A stretch of DNA of 48,430 bases from Arthrobacter antibioticus. Lineage in GTDB: Bacteria > Actinomycetota > Actinomycetes > Actinomycetales > Micrococcaceae. The notes beneath the pieces are model-generated. The model saw only the letters and a program-made list of their open reading frames with translations. It was not told the DNA's origin and ran no database searches. Shown piece after piece: positions 19,402 through 29,580 of this stretch (its first letter is position 1; each line of letters begins with the position of its first letter). The DNA lies in NCBI RefSeq assembly GCF_030063205.1, contig NZ_JASISQ010000010.1, positions 51,563 to 99,992 on the forward strand, written 5' to 3'. Both the position numbers and the translations under genes were made by a program.

Positions 19402-20991
19402 GTGACTAATCCCGCTACGCCTCAGACTTCCCAGAAGCCCGTCCTGGTTGTGGACTACGGTGCCCAGTACGCCCAGTTGATTGCGCGCCGTGTGCGTGAG
19501 GCAAACGTGTACTCGGAAATCGTGCCACATACCTATACAACCGCGCAGTTGCTTGCCAAAAACCCAGCTGCCATTATCCTTTCCGGTGGACCCTCTAGTG
19601 TCTACGCCGAAGGCGCACCCAGCATTGGTGTCGACCTTTTTGAAGCTGGTATCCCGGTACTCGGCATTTGCTACGGCTTCCAGGCCATGGCGGCCGCTTT
19701 GGGCGGCACCGTAGCCCAGACCGGTCAACGCGAATACGGATCAACCCAAGTACAACTCTTGGGTGAAAGCCGCTCCATCCTTAGCTCAACAGGGGCGGAA
19801 CAAACCACTTGGATGAGCCACGGGGATAGCGTCCATGAGGCTCCGGCAGGCTTTGATGTTCTGGCATCTTCTCCCGGCGCACCTGTTGCCGCCTTCGCCA
19901 ATGAGGAAAAGTGCCTCTTTGGCGTGCAATGGCACCCCGAGGTCAAGCACTCCGAATTTGGCCAACAGGTGTTGGAAAATTTCTTGTTCAATGGTGCCAA
20001 ACTTGAGAAGAACTGGACCGCCACTAGCATCTTGGACGAGCAGATTGACCGCATGCGCGAGCAGATCGGCGACGCCAAAGTGTTGTGTGGACTCTCCGGC
20101 GGCGTTGACTCAGCAGTGGCCGCTGCCTTGGTGCAGCGTGCAGTTGGCGATCAGTTGACCTGCGTGTTCGTCAACCACGGCCTGCTTCGTCAAGGTGAAG
20201 CTGAGCAAGTTGAGTTGGACTTTGTTGCCTCAACCGGAGCCAAACTCTACGTAGCCAACGAGCAGGACCGGTTCCTGAACGCCCTCGCTGGCGTCTCTGA
20301 TCCTGAAACAAAGCGGAAGATCATTGGTCGCGAGTTCATTCGCGCCTTCGAAGAGGCGGAGCGGGCCATCATGGCTGAGGCTGCCTTGGAAGGTGAAGAG
20401 ATCAAGTTCTTGGTTCAAGGAACCTTGTACCCGGACGTTGTTGAGTCTGGCGGTGGTGAAGGCGCCGCCAACATCAAGAGCCACCACAACGTAGGCGGAC
20501 TACCCGAAGATCTACGCTTTGAACTTGTTGAGCCGCTGCGGGCCTTGTTCAAGGACGAGGTACGTGCGGTTGGTGCCGAGTTGGGTCTGCCACCTGAGAT
20601 TGTGGGCCGCCAGCCGTTCCCCGGTCCCGGCCTGGGTATTCGCATCGTGGGCGAAATTACCGGCGAACGTCTTGAACTGCTCCGAAACGCGGACGCCATT
20701 GCCCGAGCCGAGCTCACGGCAGCTGGCTTGGACAATGAAGTGTGGCAGATGCCTGTGGTGCTGCTTGCCGATGTCCGCAGCGTTGGTGTGATGGGAGATG
20801 GGCGCACCTACGGTCACCCTATCGTGTTGCGCCCGGTGTCCTCAGAAGACGCTATGACCGCGGATTGGTCACGCCTGCCGTACGACTTGCTGGCAAAAAT
20901 TTCCAACCGGATCACTAATGAAGTGGATGGGGTAAACCGCGTGGTTCTGGATGTCACCTCCAAACCACCGGGAACTATTGAGTGGGAGTAG
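19402..20991 (+). CDS. guaA: GMP synthase (glutamine-hydrolysing)
   Basis: A 529-residue enzyme that aminates XMP to GMP, using product of guaB upstream. The N-terminal glutamine amidotransferase has the nucleophile elbow GICYGFQ (Cys90) and the triad partners in WHPE (His178, Glu180). The ATP-pyrophosphatase P-loop LSGGVDSA lies near residue 231. The C-terminal dimerisation domain ends with the conserved KPPGTIEWE. The GTG at 19402 gives the normal N-terminus but has only a weak Shine-Dalgarno sequence. Length is normal for bacterial GuaA. Confidence 0.97.
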
Positions 20992-21103: not shown

Positions 21104-24100
21104 ATGTCAGTATGGTCAAGACCGTTTCGCTCAAGTGCAGAGAAGAAGGCACCCGTGTCCGATGTTGCAGGCCCCAATGAGAGTTCATTGGAACTCCAAA
21201 CCTGGCTTGCTGGATTGGATTCTTATTCAGGCGCGGATACAGCCCTTACCTTCGTAAAAACCGAGCACGGCAGCATTGGTCTCACACACGCCCACCCGTC
21301 TGGCCTGGCCCAGCTTCTGGCCGGCCGTAAAACCCGGCTCTCCACCTTGATTCGCGAACCCGAACATTATGCGGCCGCAAAGAAGGCTGCCGCTGCCCTT
21401 CGCGCGAAGATCTTTGAGCTGAGCACCGATCGCGGAATCGACGTCGGATATTTGGGTGCCGGTATGGCGCGCTGGTCTGTTGTCGGTGGTGAAAACAGCG
21501 GTGACGTCTGCGCACCTGTCCTGCTCGCCGCCGTCGCACTGACCGTCCGCCCTGGTCAAGATGACTATGAACTCCAGCTAATGGAGCAGGCACAGGTGAA
21601 CCCCGCACTGGCGAAACACTTGGCTCAGAAGGCAAACATCCACCTTGATACCGCAGCTTTAGGGCGGCTGGCGTACAGCACGGCACGCTTCGATCCGGCC
21701 CCCGTCCTGGATCGCGTGCGTACACTGCTGGCCCCCATCAACGGGGCAGTTGTGGAACACGAACTGGTGGTTTCCACCTTCGCATTCCTGGCAGATAATT
21801 TGAACGACCCAGCACTGATGGCCGGTAGCGAACTGCTTGAGTTGCTCCAGAGTCATAGCGGCGATGACGTTCTACCCGTTGAGCTCGAGCCCGACTTTGA
21901 ACGCTTTGCTCCGCTGGATGATCGCCACCCTGAAGATGAACTGTTGGTCCTGGACGCTGATCCACAGCAACAATACGTCCTGGATATGGTTCGCAGTGGC
22001 GAGTCAGTCCTTGTTTCGACCCCTCCAGGGACCGGACAGACACAGACAGCAATCAATGCCGTCGCCCAACTAGTCCATGACGGCAAAAGCGTTTTGGTGG
22101 TGGGTGAACGTCGCGGGACGTTAAATGAATTTGCACAGATTCTTAGCAATCACGATCTTGACTCTCTTCTGTTGCAGCTCAGCGCACAGACGGGGCCCCA
22201 GCAAATCAAGTCGCAGTTGATCCGGGCCATCACCCGAAATGAAAAAGCCGTTGAACCCACATTGGACAGCTTGCATGAAACTCTCGTCGATCATCGGCAC
22301 CAACTGGTTGATCATGTAGCCAGCCTGCACAATGTGCGCGAACGATGGGGATGCTCGCCTTACCAAGCTATGCAGTCATTGGCCGAACTGACCTCGATCC
22401 ACCCCGCGCCATCCACAACAGTGCGCCTCAAACGCAGCGTCTTGGATAGCATCCGTGATCGCAAGGAGCTCACTGGGCGTCTGCGACGGACCGCTGAGCT
22501 CGGTGCGTTTAGCCAGGTTGCCGTCAGTAGTGCATGGCATGGCGCCCGAATGGTGACACGCAAGGAAACCGAGTCGGCTTATTCGCTGGCTGAGCAACTG
22601 TACGATCAGGTGCCCGGCTTTGCCGTGAAGATGCGGGAGGTGGCTGAATTTGGTCAAATTCGGCAGGGTAGTTCTTTTGCCCAGTGGGGTCGGCAGCTGG
22701 ACATGCTGGTCGCGATTCGGGAAAGCCTGGATAAGTTCAACGCCGATATTTTTGACTGGTCAACGGATGAAATGATCGCTGCCACGGCTACCGCTGCTTG
22801 GCGCCGGGAGCGTGGCATCGATATGCCTGCCTTGCAGCGTGCACGGTTCCGTCGCAACGCTAAAGATTTAGTCCGTCCCGGTGTGCATATCGCAGATCTC
22901 CACGCATCCTTGATGCTTGTCAACGAACAAAGCATGCTGTGGGCGGAGGCTGCAACTAGCAAGCGTCACCCCACTGTGCCCTCGGGGCTGGCTGAGTTGA
23001 GCCGCACTTACAAGAGCTTGCGCGAGAAGTTGGTGGCTCTGGGCGCTGTTTTGGACCGTACGGTCGATGGCGGGGACCTGCTGAATTTCAATGCGCGGGA
23101 GCTCGTTGGCCGTTTGGAAGCGCTGGTAGCTTCTCGGGAATCACTGGAGACGCTGCCTGAGCGCACGCTTCTGCTTGAGGGTATGCGGGAACAAGGTCTT
23201 GGCGAACTACTTGATGACCTGGCCCGCCGTGAGGTGCCGTCTGAGCAGACCAGTTCAGAGCTTGAACTTGCGTGGTGGCAGTCGGCGTTGGAAGCCATGA
23301 TTAGCGGGGATGAGTACCTTGCCATGTCCGACGGCGAAAATCTGCGCCGCTTGGAGGCTGAGTTCCGCTTGGCTGACCAAACGCATGTTGCTTCCGGTCC
23401 CGGCCGGATCCGTTGGCACCTGGCCAAGCAGTGGAAGGCGATGCTTGCCGGTCGCAACCGGCAGGGTGAAATGCTGCGCAATGTGCTAAAGGATGGGAGG
23501 GTCTCCCTTGCCGGACTGAGCACCCAGACACCTGACCTGTTACGTAATCTGGCACCCGTTTTTGCCCTGAGCCCACTCGTGGTGTCTTCGGCCATTCCGG
23601 CCCACTACCGTTTCGATGCCGTGGTCATCCTTGATGCAGAATCCACGTCTTTGCAATCGGCCCTCCCAGCCCTGGCCCGGGCGGATCAGGTCATTGCCTT
23701 TGGCGACGAACAGACAGCGTGCCCCAAGAGCTTCAGCGTTGCTGTCGGAACTCCGGGGGCCCGTAGTGCCGAGCAACATCCGTTGGAAAGTGTGTTTGGT
23801 GCGCTGTCCAGGGTCCTTTCGCGACATCGTTTGACAGTTTCTTACCGAGCCGTTGATGAAGACTTGGTGCGTCAGCTCAGTACCGGATTCTACGATTCAC
23901 AGTTGGAACGGCTTCCCGACGGCCGGGCCGTGACAGGACTTGAACGCGCAATCACAGTTGACTATCTCCCGGACGGCAAGGGCTTGCCCGGCGCTGGCGA
24001 CGGCGGGGTTGAATCAGTGGTTGCCGAAGTTAACCGTGTTGTTGACTTGGTGTTTGAACACGCCAGGGTTCGTCCTCGCGAGTCGTTGGCCATCATCACA

Positions 24101-25231
24101 GCCAGTGAGCGGCATGCCGTTCGAGTTGCTCAAGCCATCCGGCTTCAAATGGCCAACCATCCGCTGCTCGCTGAATTCTTTGCCTCGGGTGCTGAGTCGT
24201 TCCGCGTTGTTACTGTTGACCGTGCCGCCGGTCTTGTCAGGGATAGAGTTATTTTCTCCCTTGGCTTTGGACGGACGCCACATGGCCGTGCGCTGCATGG
24301 CTTTGGGCCCTTGTCTGAACCTGACGGTCGTGCGAAATTCGCCCTGGCTATGACGCGCGCCCGCACCCATATACATATAGTCACGTGCTTCCGTCCTGAG
24401 GACTTGGATGAGAATCGGCTAAGTTTTGGTGCCATTGATTTCTTTGAGCTACTTGACCGTGAACTTGCCGGGAATTCGTTGCTGGGAACACCGGCAACAC
24501 GTGCCCTTGATAGTGAACGTGCCACAGGCGAAGACCCGCTTGTGGCGGATCTTGCCGACAGGCTTCGCGCCCGTGGAGCAAGAGTGTGGCATCACTACGA
24601 CGGTGTTCTGGATATGGCGGCGGCCCCGGACCCCGTTCAACTTCTTGGCCTTGAGGACCACGAAATTCCGGTACCTGTCGCAGTTGAATCGGATGGCACG
24701 GCTAAGTACCAGAACATGACTGTACGTGAGCGGAGCCGCCTGCGCCCACAAATGCTGGAACGTTTGGGCTGGCGCTACGTACCGTTGTGGACCATTGAGG
24801 TATTTACCGATCCATCAAGTTGTGCTGATCAGATTGGCCGGCATCTGAACCTGGCCACGACCAGTGGCGATGCCGAACTAGCTTCTTTATTTGGCGCACC
24901 CTCTGATTCCCCCACAACCGGCACGGTTGATTCGTCTCGTTCACGGCGACGCACCAATGTAGCTTCAGCTGACGTAGCGGCGGAGGAGCTGGTGCGTGCA
25001 AATAAAGTAGACGATACAAAAAATAGTGAAAAGAGTGTGCCAACAGTGAGCGGGTCTGAAGATACAGCAGCTGATAAGACGAGCGACAACCCAGCGCCGG
25101 AATCAGCAGAAGACTCCAAGTTGTTGCCCAAGGTAGCTCCGAGCGACGCCGATCATACGTGGGGTGACTCCTCCAACGGACGCGGTCATGACGCGTGGCT
25201 GCGTGAGAATAAGCCTCCGCACTGGGGCTAG
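21104..25231 (+). CDS. SF1-helicase-like protein with altered Walker A and C-terminal endonuclease-like domain
   Basis: A 1375-residue protein. Residues about 25-280 form a DUF4011-like N-terminal part. The nucleotide site reads PPGTGQT (307-313), with Gln312 where helicases have the catalytic lysine. Later helicase-like motifs remain: VVILDAES (Walker B region, Asp844), GDEQ (867-870), TVSYRAVDEDL and the motif VI-like ALAMTRARTHIHIV (near 1083). Residues about 1150-1265 resemble the MTES_1575-type PD-(D/E)XK fold (VAVESDG, then a basic helix and LGWRYVPLWTIEVF). A disordered acidic tail ends the protein. The ATG at 21104 has no clear ribosome site; GTG at 21154 with AAGAAGG upstream is an alternative. 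It lies downstream of guaA. Role in DNA or RNA metabolism is likely, but its ATPase activity is doubtful. Confidence 0.8.
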   Translation: MSVWSRPFRSSAEKKAPVSDVAGPNESSLELQTWLAGLDSYSGADTALTFVKTEHGSIGLTHAHPSGLAQLLAGRKTRLSTLIREPEHYAAAKKAAAALRAKIFELSTDRGIDVGYLGAGMARWSVVGGENSGDVCAPVLLAAVALTVRPGQDDYELQLMEQAQVNPALAKHLAQKANIHLDTAALGRLAYSTARFDPAPVLDRVRTLLAPINGAVVEHELVVSTFAFLADNLNDPALMAGSELLELLQSHSGDDVLPVELEPDFERFAPLDDRHPEDELLVLDADPQQQYVLDMVRSGESVLVSTPPGTGQTQTAINAVAQLVHDGKSVLVVGERRGTLNEFAQILSNHDLDSLLLQLSAQTGPQQIKSQLIRAITRNEKAVEPTLDSLHETLVDHRHQLVDHVASLHNVRERWGCSPYQAMQSLAELTSIHPAPSTTVRLKRSVLDSIRDRKELTGRLRRTAELGAFSQVAVSSAWHGARMVTRKETESAYSLAEQLYDQVPGFAVKMREVAEFGQIRQGSSFAQWGRQLDMLVAIRESLDKFNADIFDWSTDEMIAATATAAWRRERGIDMPALQRARFRRNAKDLVRPGVHIADLHASLMLVNEQSMLWAEAATSKRHPTVPSGLAELSRTYKSLREKLVALGAVLDRTVDGGDLLNFNARELVGRLEALVASRESLETLPERTLLLEGMREQGLGELLDDLARREVPSEQTSSELELAWWQSALEAMISGDEYLAMSDGENLRRLEAEFRLADQTHVASGPGRIRWHLAKQWKAMLAGRNRQGEMLRNVLKDGRVSLAGLSTQTPDLLRNLAPVFALSPLVVSSAIPAHYRFDAVVILDAESTSLQSALPALARADQVIAFGDEQTACPKSFSVAVGTPGARSAEQHPLESVFGALSRVLSRHRLTVSYRAVDEDLVRQLSTGFYDSQLERLPDGRAVTGLERAITVDYLPDGKGLPGAGDGGVESVVAEVNRVVDLVFEHARVRPRESLAIITASERHAVRVAQAIRLQMANHPLLAEFFASGAESFRVVTVDRAAGLVRDRVIFSLGFGRTPHGRALHGFGPLSEPDGRAKFALAMTRARTHIHIVTCFRPEDLDENRLSFGAIDFFELLDRELAGNSLLGTPATRALDSERATGEDPLVADLADRLRARGARVWHHYDGVLDMAAAPDPVQLLGLEDHEIPVPVAVESDGTAKYQNMTVRERSRLRPQMLERLGWRYVPLWTIEVFTDPSSCADQIGRHLNLATTSGDAELASLFGAPSDSPTTGTVDSSRSRRRTNVASADVAAEELVRANKVDDTKNSEKSVPTVSGSEDTAADKTSDNPAPESAEDSKLLPKVAPSDADHTWGDSSNGRGHDAWLRENKPPHWG

Positions 25232-25239
25232 GAACTGCA

Positions 25240-25752
25240 TTGACTAATCCTCCGAAAATTCCCGGGTTGGGCGCGTTTATTGAAAAGAATGCTGGGGCGT
25301 CCAACCCTGCCGTACCACATCTTGTAGTGGCGGCTGCGCGATTGTTACTTGCCGCTGCCGTGGTTCAGATCATCGCCTCAGTGATGGCAGTAATGTACGC
25401 GGCCTCACCCGACCGTCTAGTGGCGATTCAGGCACAAATAGATGCCATGAGTGGTGCTGTACCCAGTTTGGAAGCCACCCGAAACATGGGGGTGATAACA
25501 GTGGTTTTGGCTGGCATTGCAACTGTTAGCGCGTACGTGTTGTTTGCTTTTTTTCTGCGGAAAGGCCGGACTTGGGCCAGAGTTGCCGCTGGGGTGCTGG
25601 CGGTTCTAACGTTGACGCAGCTAGTGGGGTTCACGATGCCTCAGGGGCTGACAACTGTGGCTCAGATTATTTTGGGCGGGTTGGCAGTAGGACTGTGTTA
25701 TTTGCCTGAAGCGAATAAGTACTTTGCAGTTGTCAAGGCTGCACGGAGCTAA
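25240..25752 (+). CDS. Small four-helix membrane protein, unknown function
   Basis: A 170-residue protein with four predicted membrane segments after a 30-residue hydrophilic lead: about 32-53, 78-100, 112-130 and 135-152. The turn FFLRKGRTWARVAAGVLAVLTL between helices two and three is a motif often seen in actinobacterial small membrane proteins of unknown role. The start is TTG at 25240, with AGGA formed across the stop codon of the helicase-like gene, so the two genes are probably co-transcribed and coupled. No function can be assigned. Confidence 0.75.
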   Translation: MTNPPKIPGLGAFIEKNAGASNPAVPHLVVAAARLLLAAAVVQIIASVMAVMYAASPDRLVAIQAQIDAMSGAVPSLEATRNMGVITVVLAGIATVSAYVLFAFFLRKGRTWARVAAGVLAVLTLTQLVGFTMPQGLTTVAQIILGGLAVGLCYLPEANKYFAVVKAARS

Positions 25753-25801: not shown

Positions 25802-26596
25802 TCAATTCAGCAAGATGAGGAAAATCTTTCCACGGTTGACGGCGTCCACCAAGCGTACAGACTGCTCTGCTGACGCTGCCACCACGACGAGTCCCTCATT
25901 TTCGTGGGCTGGTAGTAATCCTGCACTGCTCTGCACCAGTTCCGGAGTCCACAAAACGGGGATACTTTCTGCCAATACTTCATTGCGTAAAGGTCCATCC
26001 ATGCCTTGGCTGCTGCTAAGGATCACAGTGACAAGCTGGCCCTGACGCAACAGTGCCAAAGTAGAGGGATCACTTAATCGCAGTGGCACCGCCTGGCTCC
26101 CCGCAGGTGCACCGATCAGCAACCCACTTCCCAGTAGGGAGGCATCGGTCATAACTTCGCCACGGCGAACGGGCCCGGAGACCTGCCTTCCCTGCCACAA
26201 GCTGGACGTTGCGTTGGACTCCGTGCCAGTGGCGGCTGAGCCAGTGGTGGCCGAGCCAATCGTGGCAACCTCGGGATGCAGAGCGCCGTCGGGCACCATG
26301 CGGGGGCTTACCTGGGTGGGCAGCAGATCCCCACTAGCCAGTATGTGTCCTGCCGGAATGTCGTGGGATGCTGTGAATACTGTGGTGGTAACAGGGCTCG
26401 AAGGGGTGAGTTGTTGGACGGACAGGGCCGCTGCTACGCAGAAGAGCAGGGCTGCGAAAAGTCGTCGATGACGCATTATTATCCGCTGAAACCTCTGCCG
26501 GATTGATAGAGGGGAGCCGCGTCCTGACCACGAATGGGAACGCCAAAGAGGTCCTGCATAAACAGGCGGGTTTGGCGGATTGCGTGATGACTTCAT
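25802..26596 (-). CDS. SAF domain protein, CpaB/RcpC-like
   Basis: A 264-residue protein with a basic cytoplasmic N-terminus, one membrane helix (LFAALLFCVAAALSV, about residues 46-60) and an outward-facing SAF domain beginning with TASHDIPAGHILASGDL. A spacer rich in Gly, Ser, Ala and Thr (GSATTGSAATGT) precedes the second half, which has PVRRGEVMT and a later VVVAAS segment. This is the arrangement of Flp pilus assembly protein CpaB, but no other pilus genes are present here, so a pilus role is uncertain. It is the last gene of a leftward group with the zinc ribbon protein and the cyclo-ligase. Confidence 0.78.
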   Translation of the reverse strand: MKSSRNPPNPPVYAGPLWRSHSWSGRGSPLSIRQRFQRIIMRHRRLFAALLFCVAAALSVQQLTPSSPVTTTVFTASHDIPAGHILASGDLLPTQVSPRMVPDGALHPEVATIGSATTGSAATGTESNATSSLWQGRQVSGPVRRGEVMTDASLLGSGLLIGAPAGSQAVPLRLSDPSTLALLRQGQLVTVILSSSQGMDGPLRNEVLAESIPVLWTPELVQSSAGLLPAHENEGLVVVAASAEQSVRLVDAVNRGKIFLILLN

Positions 26597-26734
26597 AACC
26601 CAACGCTAGGCCCACAACCGTTCCACTAATAGGGGCGGACACTTATCAGTGGAGGACTTTCTAACCGGCCGGGTCTGTGGAGGAATAGCTGGGTCCAGAA
26701 GACTAGTTCGCAGAATGAAAAGGGCGCCAAGAAT

Positions 26735-26763
26735 TAAAAGTACTAACTGTACTAAAAGTACTA
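26735..26763. repeat. Short direct repeat, 18-bp period
   Basis: TAAAAGTACTA occurs at 26735-26745 and again at 26753-26763, a period of 18 bp. The right copy contains the stop codon of the zinc ribbon gene, read on the minus strand. Its meaning is unknown; it could be a replication-slippage duplication. Confidence 0.6.
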
Positions 26764-27162
26764 GCTGGATGCGTTGGCTGCTGAGGCGTTTTTTTGGCCC
26801 GAATTCTTCTTGGCCGCACTGCCAGAGCTAGAGCTTTCAGAGCTGCCAGATCCTGCACTTGCCTTGGCCGCACCACCTGAGCTGCTGGCATCTGAGGACT
26901 TGGGGGAGGAAGCGCCACCGGATGCTGAATTTGCTGATTCGGAATTAGTCGAGCCGGATGCGGCAGCTGGAACCGAGCTGGCGTTGGAGCGTGAATCGGT
27001 GCGGTAAAAACCGGATCCCTTGAAAACAACCCCCACTGAATTGAACTTCTTCCGAAGATTTCCGCGACATTCCGGGCAGGCAGTCAAAGAGTCATCGGTG
27101 AATGACTGCTGAATATCAAAGGCGTGGCCGCAATCTTTGCAGGCGTAAGCGTACGTGGGCAC
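26761..27162 (-). CDS. FmdB-family zinc ribbon protein, similar to M. tuberculosis Ruc (Rv0991c)
   Basis: A 133-residue protein whose first 40 residues form a zinc ribbon with two CxxC pairs (ACKDCG and ACPECRG). The remaining 75 residues are disordered and rich in Ser, Ala and Gly. The GTG at 27162 is chosen because AGGAGG lies 7 bp upstream and the family N-terminus VPTYAYAC starts there; the longer frame to 27282 lacks similarity. Size, architecture and position before the cyclo-ligase and galU match Rv0991c, described as a redox-regulated chaperone. The equivalence is inferred from architecture and synteny. Confidence 0.88.
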   Translation of the reverse strand: MPTYAYACKDCGHAFDIQQSFTDDSLTACPECRGNLRKKFNSVGVVFKGSGFYRTDSRSNASSVPAAASGSTNSESANSASGGASSPKSSDASSSGGAAKASAGSGSSESSSSGSAAKKNSGQKNASAANASS

Positions 27163-27336
27163 TGATTTTCCTCCTGGATACATGCGTTGGGACACTGCTA
27201 TCACCAGTCGCGTGGCTGGCAGTCCATGATCCCAGCTGCTAATTCTACCATCGGAAGAGAACAAGGCGCGGAGATCCCTCACATGCCACTCTCCTTTAGC
27301 TACCCTGGTACACCCACCAAGTGCAGCAGTGCTGTT

Positions 27337-27954
27337 TCATTGCGGCTGAATTGTCCCGGTTCCCATGTGTTGGTAGCCAACAGGGGTCAGCGAATAGTCC
27401 ACGGGGGCGTCCAAAACATCGGAGGGGAGGCGGCCGGAGGCAAGAACTTCGGGTGCATAGACCACGGCGGCTACGGGAATGGCAGCGGCTGTCGCCAGGA
27501 ACCTGTCATAGTAGCCGCCTCCCTGGCCTAGGCGGACACCTGAACGGTCAACGGCGAGCGCAGGAACGAAGATCGCCTGAATGTAATCCAATTCGCTAAA
27601 GTGATTTCGAGGTCCTACAGGCTCCATGACGGGAGCGAAGCGGCTTCGTGCCATCTGCACGTCGGCAAACCAAAGGACCCAACTGAGCAGGTGCCCGGGT
27701 TCGCAAACAGGCACGTACACGCTGTAACCAGCATTCGTTAGGGCTCCCAAAAGTGCTTCGGTGGGTGGCTCATCACCCATGGAGATATAGGCACATACGG
27801 CGGAGCCGGAACGTGGCTGGAGGCCAAGCGATTCCAGCCAGCTGAGTCCGGAATACGCCAGATCTGCTCCCAGCAGCGCAGGGGAAGCGCGATGGACTTC
27901 CTTGCGCTGAGCACGCAGCCTGGAACGCCAAACAGACTTATCGAGTGCGCTCAC
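27337..27954 (-). CDS. 5-formyltetrahydrofolate cyclo-ligase
   Basis: A 205-residue enzyme that converts 5-formyl-THF to methenyl-THF with ATP, returning stored folate to one-carbon metabolism. The basic N-terminal helix (WRSRLRAQRKEV) and the nucleotide-binding motif RLGQGGGYYDRFL near the C-terminus are diagnostic. A GTG at 27954 gives the normal start. It diverges from galU, as Rv0992c does in mycobacteria, and runs in the same direction as the zinc ribbon gene, with a 174-bp gap that shows no other gene. Confidence 0.93.
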   Translation of the reverse strand: MSALDKSVWRSRLRAQRKEVHRASPALLGADLAYSGLSWLESLGLQPRSGSAVCAYISMGDEPPTEALLGALTNAGYSVYVPVCEPGHLLSWVLWFADVQMARSRFAPVMEPVGPRNHFSELDYIQAIFVPALAVDRSGVRLGQGGGYYDRFLATAAAIPVAAVVYAPEVLASGRLPSDVLDAPVDYSLTPVGYQHMGTGTIQPQ

Positions 27955-28055
27955 ACGTGTCCAATCGGTTGAGTTGACTTTAGTTCAGTAGAGAGAGCAA
28001 CTAGCTATAGGGACATTATCCGTGTTTTTGGGACTCTTTCAGATAACCTAGGGGC

Positions 28056-28958
28056 ATGACTTCTGCAAAGCATGTACGTAAGGCCGTTATTCCCGCGGCT
28101 GGTTTGGGAACAAGATTCTTGCCCGCAACCAAAGCAATGCCCAAAGAAATGCTCCCCGTGGTTGATAAACCTGCCATTCAGTATGTGGTTCAGGAAGCTG
28201 TCAGCGCGGGCCTGACCGACGTTTTGATGATTACTGGCCGCAATAAACGCGCTCTGGAAGACCACTTCGATAGGGTTCCCGTGACGGAACTTCTTTTGGA
28301 GGAAAAAGGGGATATGGACCGCCTTGCAGCGGTACAACATGCCACTGATCTAGGAGAGATCCATTACGTTCGTCAGGGAGACCCCAAAGGGCTAGGACAT
28401 GCAGTGTTGCGTGCCAAAACCCATGTAGGCGATGAACCGTTTGCCGTGTTGCTAGGTGATGACCTCATCGATGAGCGCGACGAGCTGCTTGCGACGATGA
28501 TCGAAGTCCAGGAGCGCACAGGTGGGTCCGTCGTGGCGCTCATTGAGGTCCCCATGGACAAGATTTCCTCCTACGGCTGTGCTGACATGACAGTGGTTGA
28601 AGGCGAGGATTACGTCCGGGTCAACCACTTGGTCGAAAAGCCCGCAAAAGAGGAAGCACCCTCGAACCTGGCCGTCATTGGCCGCTACGTGCTGCACCCG
28701 GCCGTATTTGACGTCCTAGAAAACACCCCTCCGGGGCGTGGGAATGAAATCCAGCTCACCGATGCGCTGCAAACCCTGGCCACCCAGGAAGGTGAAGGCG
28801 GCGGTGTCTACGGGGTTGTGTTCCGTGGCAGGCGTTACGACACCGGCGACAAGCTCAGCTACCTCAAGGCAGTCGTGACGCTGGGTTGCGAAAACGAGGA
28901 ATTGGGCTCGGACCTGCGCGAGTGGCTCGGCGAGTTCACCGCCGATTTCAAGAGCTAG
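28056..28958 (+). CDS. galU: UTP-glucose-1-phosphate uridylyltransferase
   Basis: A 300-residue enzyme that makes UDP-glucose from UTP and glucose 1-phosphate for cell-wall and storage polysaccharides. The nucleotide-binding motif AAGLGTRFLPATKAMPKEMLP lies at residues about 14-34. Other family segments are VRQGDPKGLGHAVL, LLGDDLI and VEKPAKEEAPSNLAVIGRY. Length is normal. It diverges from the cyclo-ligase gene, and the acetyltransferase gene begins 4 bp after its stop, so the two are likely co-transcribed. Confidence 0.96.
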   Translation: MTSAKHVRKAVIPAAGLGTRFLPATKAMPKEMLPVVDKPAIQYVVQEAVSAGLTDVLMITGRNKRALEDHFDRVPVTELLLEEKGDMDRLAAVQHATDLGEIHYVRQGDPKGLGHAVLRAKTHVGDEPFAVLLGDDLIDERDELLATMIEVQERTGGSVVALIEVPMDKISSYGCADMTVVEGEDYVRVNHLVEKPAKEEAPSNLAVIGRYVLHPAVFDVLENTPPGRGNEIQLTDALQTLATQEGEGGGVYGVVFRGRRYDTGDKLSYLKAVVTLGCENEELGSDLREWLGEFTADFKS

Positions 28959-28962
28959 TTAC

Positions 28963-29580
28963 GTGTGGGGGCAGGCCATCTGGCCGGTGACCTTGGAATG
29001 CGGTGATTTGGTACTGCGCCCCATCAAACTTGGCGACAAGGCCGAGTGGGTCAGGGTACGAAACCGTAATTCAACGTGGCTCCAGCCGTGGGAGGCGAGC
29101 AATCCCGGTGGGCAGGGGGAGCTGCCAACTTATTCGGGGATGGTACGTGTTCTGAACCGGCAAGCCCGCGAAGCCGCCGCATTGCCGTTTATCATTACCG
29201 AACGGATTCCGTCCCAACGACGCCCAGCCATTGTGGGGCAGCTCACTGTCTCCTCCATCATGTGGGGCTCGGCGATGTCGGCGACCCTAGGCTATTGGGT
29301 TGATCAAGGCAGGGCCGGGCGAGGCATTGTCCCCACGGCAGTTGCCATGGCCACGGACCATTGTTTTCAACAGCTTGGCCTGCACAGGATGGAAATCAAT
29401 ATCCGCCCCGAGAACGCGGCCAGTCTGCGGGTGGTGGAGAAATTGGGTTTCCGGGACGAGGGTCTGCGCCCGAGGCTTTTGCACATCAATGGACAGTGGG
29501 CGGATCATCGCAGTTTCGCGCTCACTTCTGAGGAGGTTCCGGAAGGAATCCTCGTCAGGTGGCTGGGCGCGAGGCAGTAG
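28963..29580 (+). CDS. GNAT family N-acetyltransferase (RimJ/RimL-like)
   Basis: A 205-residue acetyltransferase. The GNAT core shows the acetyl-CoA pyrophosphate loop DQGRAGRGIVPTAV followed by LGLHRMEINIRPENAASLRVVEKLGF, typical of the RimJ/RimL group that acetylates ribosomal or other protein N-termini. The substrate cannot be read from sequence. The GTG at 28963 lies 4 bp after the galU stop with a weak ribosome site. In M. tuberculosis the corresponding gene (Rv0995) is separated from galU by moeA1, which is missing here. Confidence 0.88.
   Translation: MWGQAIWPVTLECGDLVLRPIKLGDKAEWVRVRNRNSTWLQPWEASNPGGQGELPTYSGMVRVLNRQAREAAALPFIITERIPSQRRPAIVGQLTVSSIMWGSAMSATLGYWVDQGRAGRGIVPTAVAMATDHCFQQLGLHRMEINIRPENAASLRVVEKLGFRDEGLRPRLLHINGQWADHRSFALTSEEVPEGILVRWLGARQ

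Follow-up and report, generated by a model that had tools for sequence, protein, structure and literature searches.

The Upf1-like helicases of superfamily 1B (SF1B), among them Upf1, senataxin, Ighmbp2, Dna2 and Aquarius, have a fold of two RecA domains, and anti-phage helicase–nucleases with DUF4011 are represented by ProA, Hhe and the PADLOC candidate PDC-S37. RecC and AddB are inactive helicase–nuclease folds that read DNA, and PriA belongs to a different superfamily, SF2. In them, an inactive superfamily 1 (SF1) helicase fold is retained as a scaffold or for recognition. AddAB is the subject of one article (PMC4824097), and another calls a conserved bacterial helicase, PriA of Deinococcus radiodurans, a pseudohelicase (PMC4504706). 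According to two further articles, a defence hotspot in Pseudomonas has a DUF4011 gene at its flank (PMC10250203), and the founding protein of the MTES_1575 family also carries HEPN, transglutaminase and winged helix-turn-helix domains (PMC3710099). Here we describe a gene for a 1375-residue protein in a 48,430-nucleotide stretch of the Arthrobacter antibioticus genome (contig NZ_JASISQ010000010.1, positions 51,563 to 99,992; the window). Our preferred reading, held with moderate confidence, is that its product is an ATPase-dead pseudohelicase–nuclease core protein, a distant relative of Hhe and ProA, which acts as a nucleic-acid-binding scaffold or sensor together with a peptide ending in PPHW.

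The protein shares the two-RecA-domain fold with the Upf1-like helicases, but unlike them it lacks the ATPase motifs and carries additional DUF4011-like and MTES_1575 domains. It can be aligned in two stretches with PDC-S37, ProA and Hhe, the second half giving the best alignment, whereas it is shorter than their models, catalytically degenerate, and the product of a core gene at a conserved locus with the PPHW sequence fused or adjacent. The parallel with RecC and AddB is one of principle, a helicase fold retained without its motor. Pseudohelicase PriA was described in one species, whereas the present protein spans an order. Its nuclease-fold domain resembles the MTES_1575, or Vsr-type, restriction endonuclease domain; the founding MTES_1575 protein differs by its extra domains. 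Among the articles listed in our search of the literature, none was seen to describe this pseudohelicase family.

A helicase fold without its ATPase residues

The gene is an intact open reading frame (ORF) with an ATG start, in agreement with an earlier note, written from the sequence alone, that had called the protein full length and helicase-like. An AlphaFold2 model of residues 57-1255, based on 89 sequences, had a mean predicted local distance difference test score (pLDDT) of 89.6 and a predicted template modelling score (pTM) of 0.79. A Foldseek search of the PDB returned 80 chains at E<=0.001, including Aquarius, senataxin, Upf1, Dna2 and Ighmbp2, and these matches identify a Upf1-like SF1B fold, with two RecA domains and a large helical insertion. 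The additional domains of the query keep template modelling scores by query length at only 0.15-0.30, and the root mean square deviation (rmsd) of the longest matches was near 30; the core Upf1 matches cover about 340-390 columns at an rmsd of about 5.5-8.5. The Pfam AAA_11 model aligned below its cut-off at residues 286-413 and DUF4011 at 90-173 (E 3.7e-4; 20.9 against a cut-off of 22.2), and the two matched 16 and 19, respectively, of 32 family members at E<=0.001.

Translation and codon (CAG) both place Gln312 at the Walker A lysine, in a loop reading PPGTGQT, as the note had reported. Its question whether this position is always non-lysine in the Micrococcaceae can be answered: in 73 aligned rows, a chosen subset of the 295 family genomes rather than a random draw and not independent of one another (21 are from the window's genus, the window included), position 312 is Gln in 64 (CAG 57, CAA 7) and Lys in none. 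Left out of these rows were L008, with ambiguous loop bases, the broken G003 copy, the incomplete G180 pieces and any second copy from the same genome (labels beginning with G, L and f are our handles for genomes, loci and families). A local mutation or sequencing error is ruled out by this family-wide Gln and by GTGKT in 0 of the 73 family orthologues. A search with a degenerate DNA pattern encoding the Gln loop gave matches in 178/295 family genomes and 23/32 genera, the location inside the gene not being individually confirmed, and the reversed-pattern control matched 0/295. The match in G187 carries an odd residue in the loop, and genera with no pattern match include loops with Ala, Glu, Gly or Leu at position 312 or with altered neighbouring prolines. 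Among relatives, the lysine is replaced by Ala, Gly, Leu, Glu or Val, or the loop is destroyed.

The other catalytic motifs are altered as well. In a gap-free alignment anchored at D838, the Walker B Asp843-Glu844 of intact relatives is Leu843-Asp844 in the window protein, so that the acids expected for magnesium binding and catalysis are changed besides the lysine. The motif III Gln of intact relatives aligns to Thr871, and the GDEQ at 867-870 is therefore not an intact GDxxQ. Thus, none of the Walker A Lys, Walker B Asp-Glu and motif III Gln that mark an active SF1 helicase is in place. Tyr914-Arg915 and TRAR at 1084-1087 are present; the note's list of persisting motifs holds for these and for the letters GDEQ, and fails for Walker B and the motif III Gln, which have changed, as have motif V residues.

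Similar results were obtained with an alignment of 89 sequences, 7 with an intact GK[ST] and 82 of pseudo-type. K312, D843, E844 and Q871 are present in all 7 intact sequences; in the pseudo-type set K312 is kept in 0, D843 in 18%, E844 in 6%, Q871 in 2%, and Q1042 and E1045, which we take to be motif V positions, in 12% and 6% (motif names are presumptive). The same 82 sequences keep G309 (96%), G311 (79%), R915 (82%), R1085 (78%) and, in at least 90%, Q289, presumably the Q-motif Gln, given its distance from the P-loop. The intact set has 220 invariant columns, and 69 of these are still at least 90% kept among the pseudo-type sequences.

Conservation of the gene and loss of the motor

The pseudohelicase was matched in 23/23 genomes of the same genus, as one open frame in 22, and in 295/295 Micrococcaceae genomes, of which G093 holds only a fragment at a contig end. 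In the order Actinomycetales 193/198 genomes had a match, the five without one being drafts of 170-610 contigs; both counts are of matches not all verified as full-length, and the weakest order matches may be paralogues. A sample of the class gave any match in 83/246 genomes, many of them short or paralogous, and 44 at E<=1e-60. The public-record relatives (20 loci) are mainly from Arthrobacter, including A. psychrochitiniphilus (83%) and A. cryoconiti (75%), with Sinomonas and one Paenarthrobacter record more distant. Two records, named 'Sporosarcina beigongshangi REN13' (L198, 81%) and 'Acidobacteria bacterium isolate G2_11' (L204, 64%), carry close Micrococcaceae-type orthologues, which suggests that they are mislabelled or contaminated. 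Separately, in one genome of the same genus (G003; L025, L026) the gene lies in three overlapping pieces, through assembly error or a recent break.

The ratio of nonsynonymous to synonymous substitution rates (dN/dS) was 0.04-0.10 in all but one of 15 pairs, the exception having 0.19; five of the dS values against the window exceeded 1.7 and were saturated. These values bear out the note's argument that retention of the frame reflects selection. By region, in 3 pairs, the values were 0.005-0.114 for the folded parts, against 0.07-0.35 for the linker and tail, and the helical insertion was the slowest folded region in only 1 of the 3. Collectively, sequence and model describe a pseudohelicase: the helicase fold is kept, the catalytic residues are lost, and purifying selection acts on the protein.

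All 32 members scanned match the PDC-S37, ProA and Hhe models. For the window protein, PDC-S37, a model with no stated cut-off, gave 345.7 bits in two stretches (model positions 110-553 and 714-1352 of 1550), and the NCBIfam ProA and Hhe models gave 326.8 bits against an equivalog cut-off of 1500 and 146.6 against 2000. Membership of ProA or Hhe is rejected on these scores, which are far below the curated cut-offs. A search of plasmids gave a best match of 79% coverage and 31% identity, in an Actinomyces oris record, and none with one place covering 80%; a search of phages gave one weak match. On these results and the conserved locus, a mobile defence gene was rejected. Within its own genome the pseudohelicase gene is single copy, and a separate 1844-residue paralogue with 27-29% identity (L137, G000:C15:314500-321500) has intact motifs (PPGTGKS, DEAS) and a PDC-S37 match of 785 bits; it is possibly a defence protein.

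Relatives with intact motifs occur in three lineages, f5 (L099/L148), f17 (L102/L149) and f45 (L169). The f5 and f17 versions sit at the same mscL/zinc-ribbon locus as the pseudo-type genes and are for that reason taken as orthologues (L148, L149), while the f45 copy has none of the shared neighbours within 17.5 kb. Maximum-likelihood trees mostly follow taxonomic families and show 3 changes between intact and lost motif. When all 25 pseudo-type rows of the smaller tree were held together, the approximately unbiased (AU) test gave p 0.117, and with 21 rows held together (four f25/f38 rows left out) p 0.071, the constraint groups having been named after the first tree was seen. Repeated loss of the motor is favoured, not proven, and a single loss is not formally rejected.

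The nuclease-fold domain, the PPHW tail and competing readings

Pfam MTES_1575 aligned at residues 1191-1245 (E 2.2e-7; 31.3 bits against a cut-off of 38.2) and matched 30/32 family members at E<=0.001, the best at 1.5e-35. The earlier note had seen a PD-(D/E)XK fold in the C-terminal 110 residues. The domain is real, and the matches in 30/32 members speak against an unrelated fold, but it was put too far downstream: in the model it spans about 1140-1255, and the last 120 residues are a linker and a conserved tail. Four other open frames of this genome, of 317-385 residues (L217, L219, L220, L221), also match MTES_1575, one of them above the cut-off.

The window protein has all five putative nuclease residues, D1170, E1195, D1197, R1208 and R1210; which of them catalyse (D...ExD) we assume by analogy with Vsr/DUF559. 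Among the 73 family rows, 70 retain D1170 and 52 E1195, while D1197, R1208 and R1210 stand in all 73, and in the 82 pseudo-type sequences the figures are 68%, 50%, 100%, 93% and 96%, in the same order. A complete site thus describes the window protein and fails as a family trait, E1195 being lost in 21/73 rows, so that nuclease activity is unlikely as the function kept by all. The persistence of D1197 and the arginines beyond the other putative catalytic residues may point to a binding role.

The C-terminal 59 residues, which end WGD..WLRENKPPHWG, correspond in many relatives to the end of a separate downstream ORF, often overlapping the big gene by 4 nt. Among 124 genomes with the big gene, scored one row per genome for PPHW near an ORF end and for candidate starts, and unevenly sampled (75/124 are Micrococcaceae), the tail is fused in 56, and in 29 it is a separate ORF whose candidate start lies at -4 or -1 relative to the end of the big gene; another overlap or abutment was seen in 15, a small gene near in 9, far in 2, none found in 8 and too little downstream sequence in 5. 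Of the 8 with none found, L008 and L076 (ending PPHHS) carry a fused tail, and L158 (G299) has a weak tail-profile match at the locus. Several families end in PPHH rather than PPHW. A 35-position tail profile matched 150/246 class genomes at E<=0.01, in 73/104 genera and once in each genome; it found the tail in 40 of the 44 class genomes with a strong big-protein match (E<=1e-60).

The stand-alone small gene is often beside mscL at the same locus, and L167, L168 and L188 show none of the shared genes. In f31, whose genomes match the big protein by the tail only, stand-alone small ORFs (L167:6394-6534, L168:6182-6433) end ..WLRRQRPPHHGD, which indicates that the PPHW/PPHH protein exists without the helicase. 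No Pfam family was found in four examples of the PPHW protein, and no NCBIfam family beyond a chance-level E of 0.16; no solved structural relative of the tail was found at E<=5, and none of the articles listed in our literature search was seen to concern the protein.

How these parts may work together can be proposed from the fold and the retained residues. A vertically inherited Upf1-like SF1B fold, with a DUF4011-like N-terminus, a helical insertion and a Vsr-type nuclease-fold domain, has had its ATPase machinery dismantled while the loop glycines, Q-motif Gln and arginines were largely kept. It would bind nucleic acid, and perhaps an adenine nucleotide too, with no turnover, and would serve, in the manner of RecC or AddB, as a scaffold or sensor that presents the PPHW peptide or is recruited by it. 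Retention of Q289, the glycines and the arginines in the Micrococcaceae allows nucleotide binding there. The acidic C-terminal tip of the single-stranded DNA-binding protein (SSB) offers an analogy for a docking tail, and the PPHW tail is a possible docking peptide. Since the nuclease residues are present in the window's genus, nicking or cleavage may be an added output in that genus. The note had offered nucleotide binding with no hydrolysis, a scaffold or a nuclease; this is still the best class of explanation, apart from the nuclease, which is unlikely as the common function given the loss of E1195.

Several observations weigh against the scaffold or sensor reading. Binding of DNA or nucleotide is deduced from the fold and the retained residues. 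In other families the P-loop is fully degraded, as in PAGCDVTG and TQDTDTAE, and as it is destroyed in several of them nucleotide binding cannot be what all members share. Among the 220 intact-invariant columns, conservation in the pseudo-type sequences drops under 90% at 151 and under 30% at 50, so that much outside the motor has changed as well. The tail is present in 110 of the 202 class genomes with no strong big-protein match, and in the 5 f38 genomes where the small gene was located, a gap of 85 to 4263 bp separates it from the big gene upstream; the link between the big and small proteins is therefore not universal. Finally, in an AlphaFold model of the fused orthologue L070 (residues 107-1306, 37 sequences), the tail, at a pLDDT of about 43-62 with the linker at 33-36, is not docked with confidence.

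A wider proposal is tentative, and we regard it as possible rather than probable. It holds that Actinomycetales and some neighbouring lineages have an undescribed core nucleic-acid complex, in which a motor-dead helicase–nuclease is joined by a small acidic PPHW protein that is ancient and Actinomycetes-wide, the helicase coming from a superfamily that also feeds anti-phage systems, with several independent motor losses and fusion of the two in most Micrococcaceae.

The alternative that survives best, though we consider it unlikely, is a nuclease that uses the dead helicase as a DNA-binding body, cutting by MTES_1575 being what is selected, perhaps in a domesticated anti-phage nuclease. The full set of five residues in the window protein, the MTES_1575 matches in 30/32 members and the distant similarity to anti-phage ProA, Hhe and PDC-S37 speak for it. 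Nevertheless, 21/73 family rows and half of the 82 pseudo-type sequences lack E1195, and about a third of the latter lack D1170, while near-universal retention, the conserved locus, the absence of a plasmid record with one place covering 80% and the single weak phage match are unlike a mobile defence gene. We give little credit to an active ATPase with a deviant site, in which another residue stands in for the lysine. The loop glycines, Q289, R915 and R1085 are largely kept, which speaks for it, but the Walker B acids and the motif III and V residues are lost together with the lysine, and it fits poorly with relatives whose loops carry so many different residues at that position or are destroyed. 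A regulator or decoy of the intact 1844-residue paralogue, in which role the protein would partner a defence helicase without being active itself, is very improbable: this genome does hold that paralogue, with its intact PPGTGKS/DEAS motifs and 785-bit PDC-S37 match, yet among the matches listed the long paralogue is in only 7 of the 23 same-genus genomes and the pseudohelicase is in all. A decaying gene whose function is gone, which the three pieces in G003 and the missing catalytic motifs might suggest, is scarcely credible, as the low dN/dS in 14/15 pairs, the matches in essentially all genomes and the 22/23 open same-genus frames contradict it.

Surroundings of the gene and implications

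The features of the gene and its neighbours are collected in the table below. The upstream guaA lies less than 1 kb away on the same strand in 74 of the 75 family genomes with enough sequence, and was not seen in L087. Downstream, the RcpC/CpaB-like (SAF) gene, whose RcpC match in the window is below the cut-off (26.4 against 28.8), was refound in 65/76 family genomes and the zinc-ribbon (FmdB-type) gene in 25/76, many of the 76 stretches being too short to reach the further downstream genes. The complete order to galU and the acetyltransferase was seen in the window and in L147; SAF, FmdB, galU and rimJ are our own presumptive labels. Elsewhere in the order, and in the f38 family outside it, the gene is beside some of the same downstream genes and, at several loci, with mscL and a phosphorylase gene, both named from the L148 copies.

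Positions of the pseudohelicase gene, its parts and its neighbours in the window
Feature	Positions	Strand	Support
guaA (GMP synthase), upstream neighbour	19402..20991	+	74/75 family genomes
Pseudohelicase–nuclease gene with fused C-terminal PPHW tail	21104..25231	+	ORF, orthologues, AlphaFold model of residues 57-1255
DUF4011-like domain at the N-terminus, approximately residues 57-263	21272..21892	+	Pfam DUF4011 just under cut-off
Degenerate Walker A PPGTGQT, residues 307-313; Gln312 at 22037-22039	22022..22042	+	alignments, DNA pattern
Mostly helical insertion between parts of the first RecA domain, residues 346-820	22139..23563	+	AlphaFold model, dN/dS
Degenerate Walker B, residues 838-846 (D838 kept; D843L, E844D)	23615..23641	+	alignment
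Degenerate motif III, residues 867-871 (GD kept, Gln871 to Thr)	23702..23716	+	alignment
Motif VI-like TRAR, residues 1084-1087	24353..24364	+	alignments
MTES_1575 / Vsr-type restriction-endonuclease-fold domain, residues about 1140-1255	24521..24868	+	Pfam, model, alignments
Variable, presumably disordered linker, residues 1256-1316	24869..25051	+	alignment, dN/dS, L070 linker pLDDT 33-36
PPHW tail, residues 1317-1375, fused here and encoded by its own small gene in many relatives	25052..25228	+	alignments, tail profile
RcpC/CpaB-like (SAF), zinc-ribbon (FmdB-type), 5-formyltetrahydrofolate cyclo-ligase, galU-type nucleotidyltransferase and GNAT acetyltransferase genes	25802..29580		refound in many relatives

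Eight bases past the stop codon, on the same strand, is a gene for a 170-residue protein (25240-25752), which was matched only in same-genus loci among those searched and had no Pfam match at E<=1e-5. The RcpC/CpaB-like gene itself (25802-26596) adjoins the pseudohelicase locus in many families. An RcpC/CpaB-like gene of Micrococcus luteus affects transformation, according to an article on competence whose genes do not include the pseudohelicase (PMC8467076).

Because the chemistry implied by the fold has been lost, an annotation of this protein as a 'helicase' or as 'defence' would mislead. Intact and dead orthologues at one locus provide a natural experiment on what a helicase does without its motor, and the coupling to PPHW opens a way to study another orphan of wider distribution, whose scanned examples belong to no Pfam or NCBIfam family. 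The pseudohelicase is a very large protein, kept in nearly all sampled genomes of the order with a dN/dS near 0.05 between close relatives, for which we found no assigned function. Taken together, these properties hint at a possible housekeeping role, so far unrecognised, for which the motor has become dispensable.

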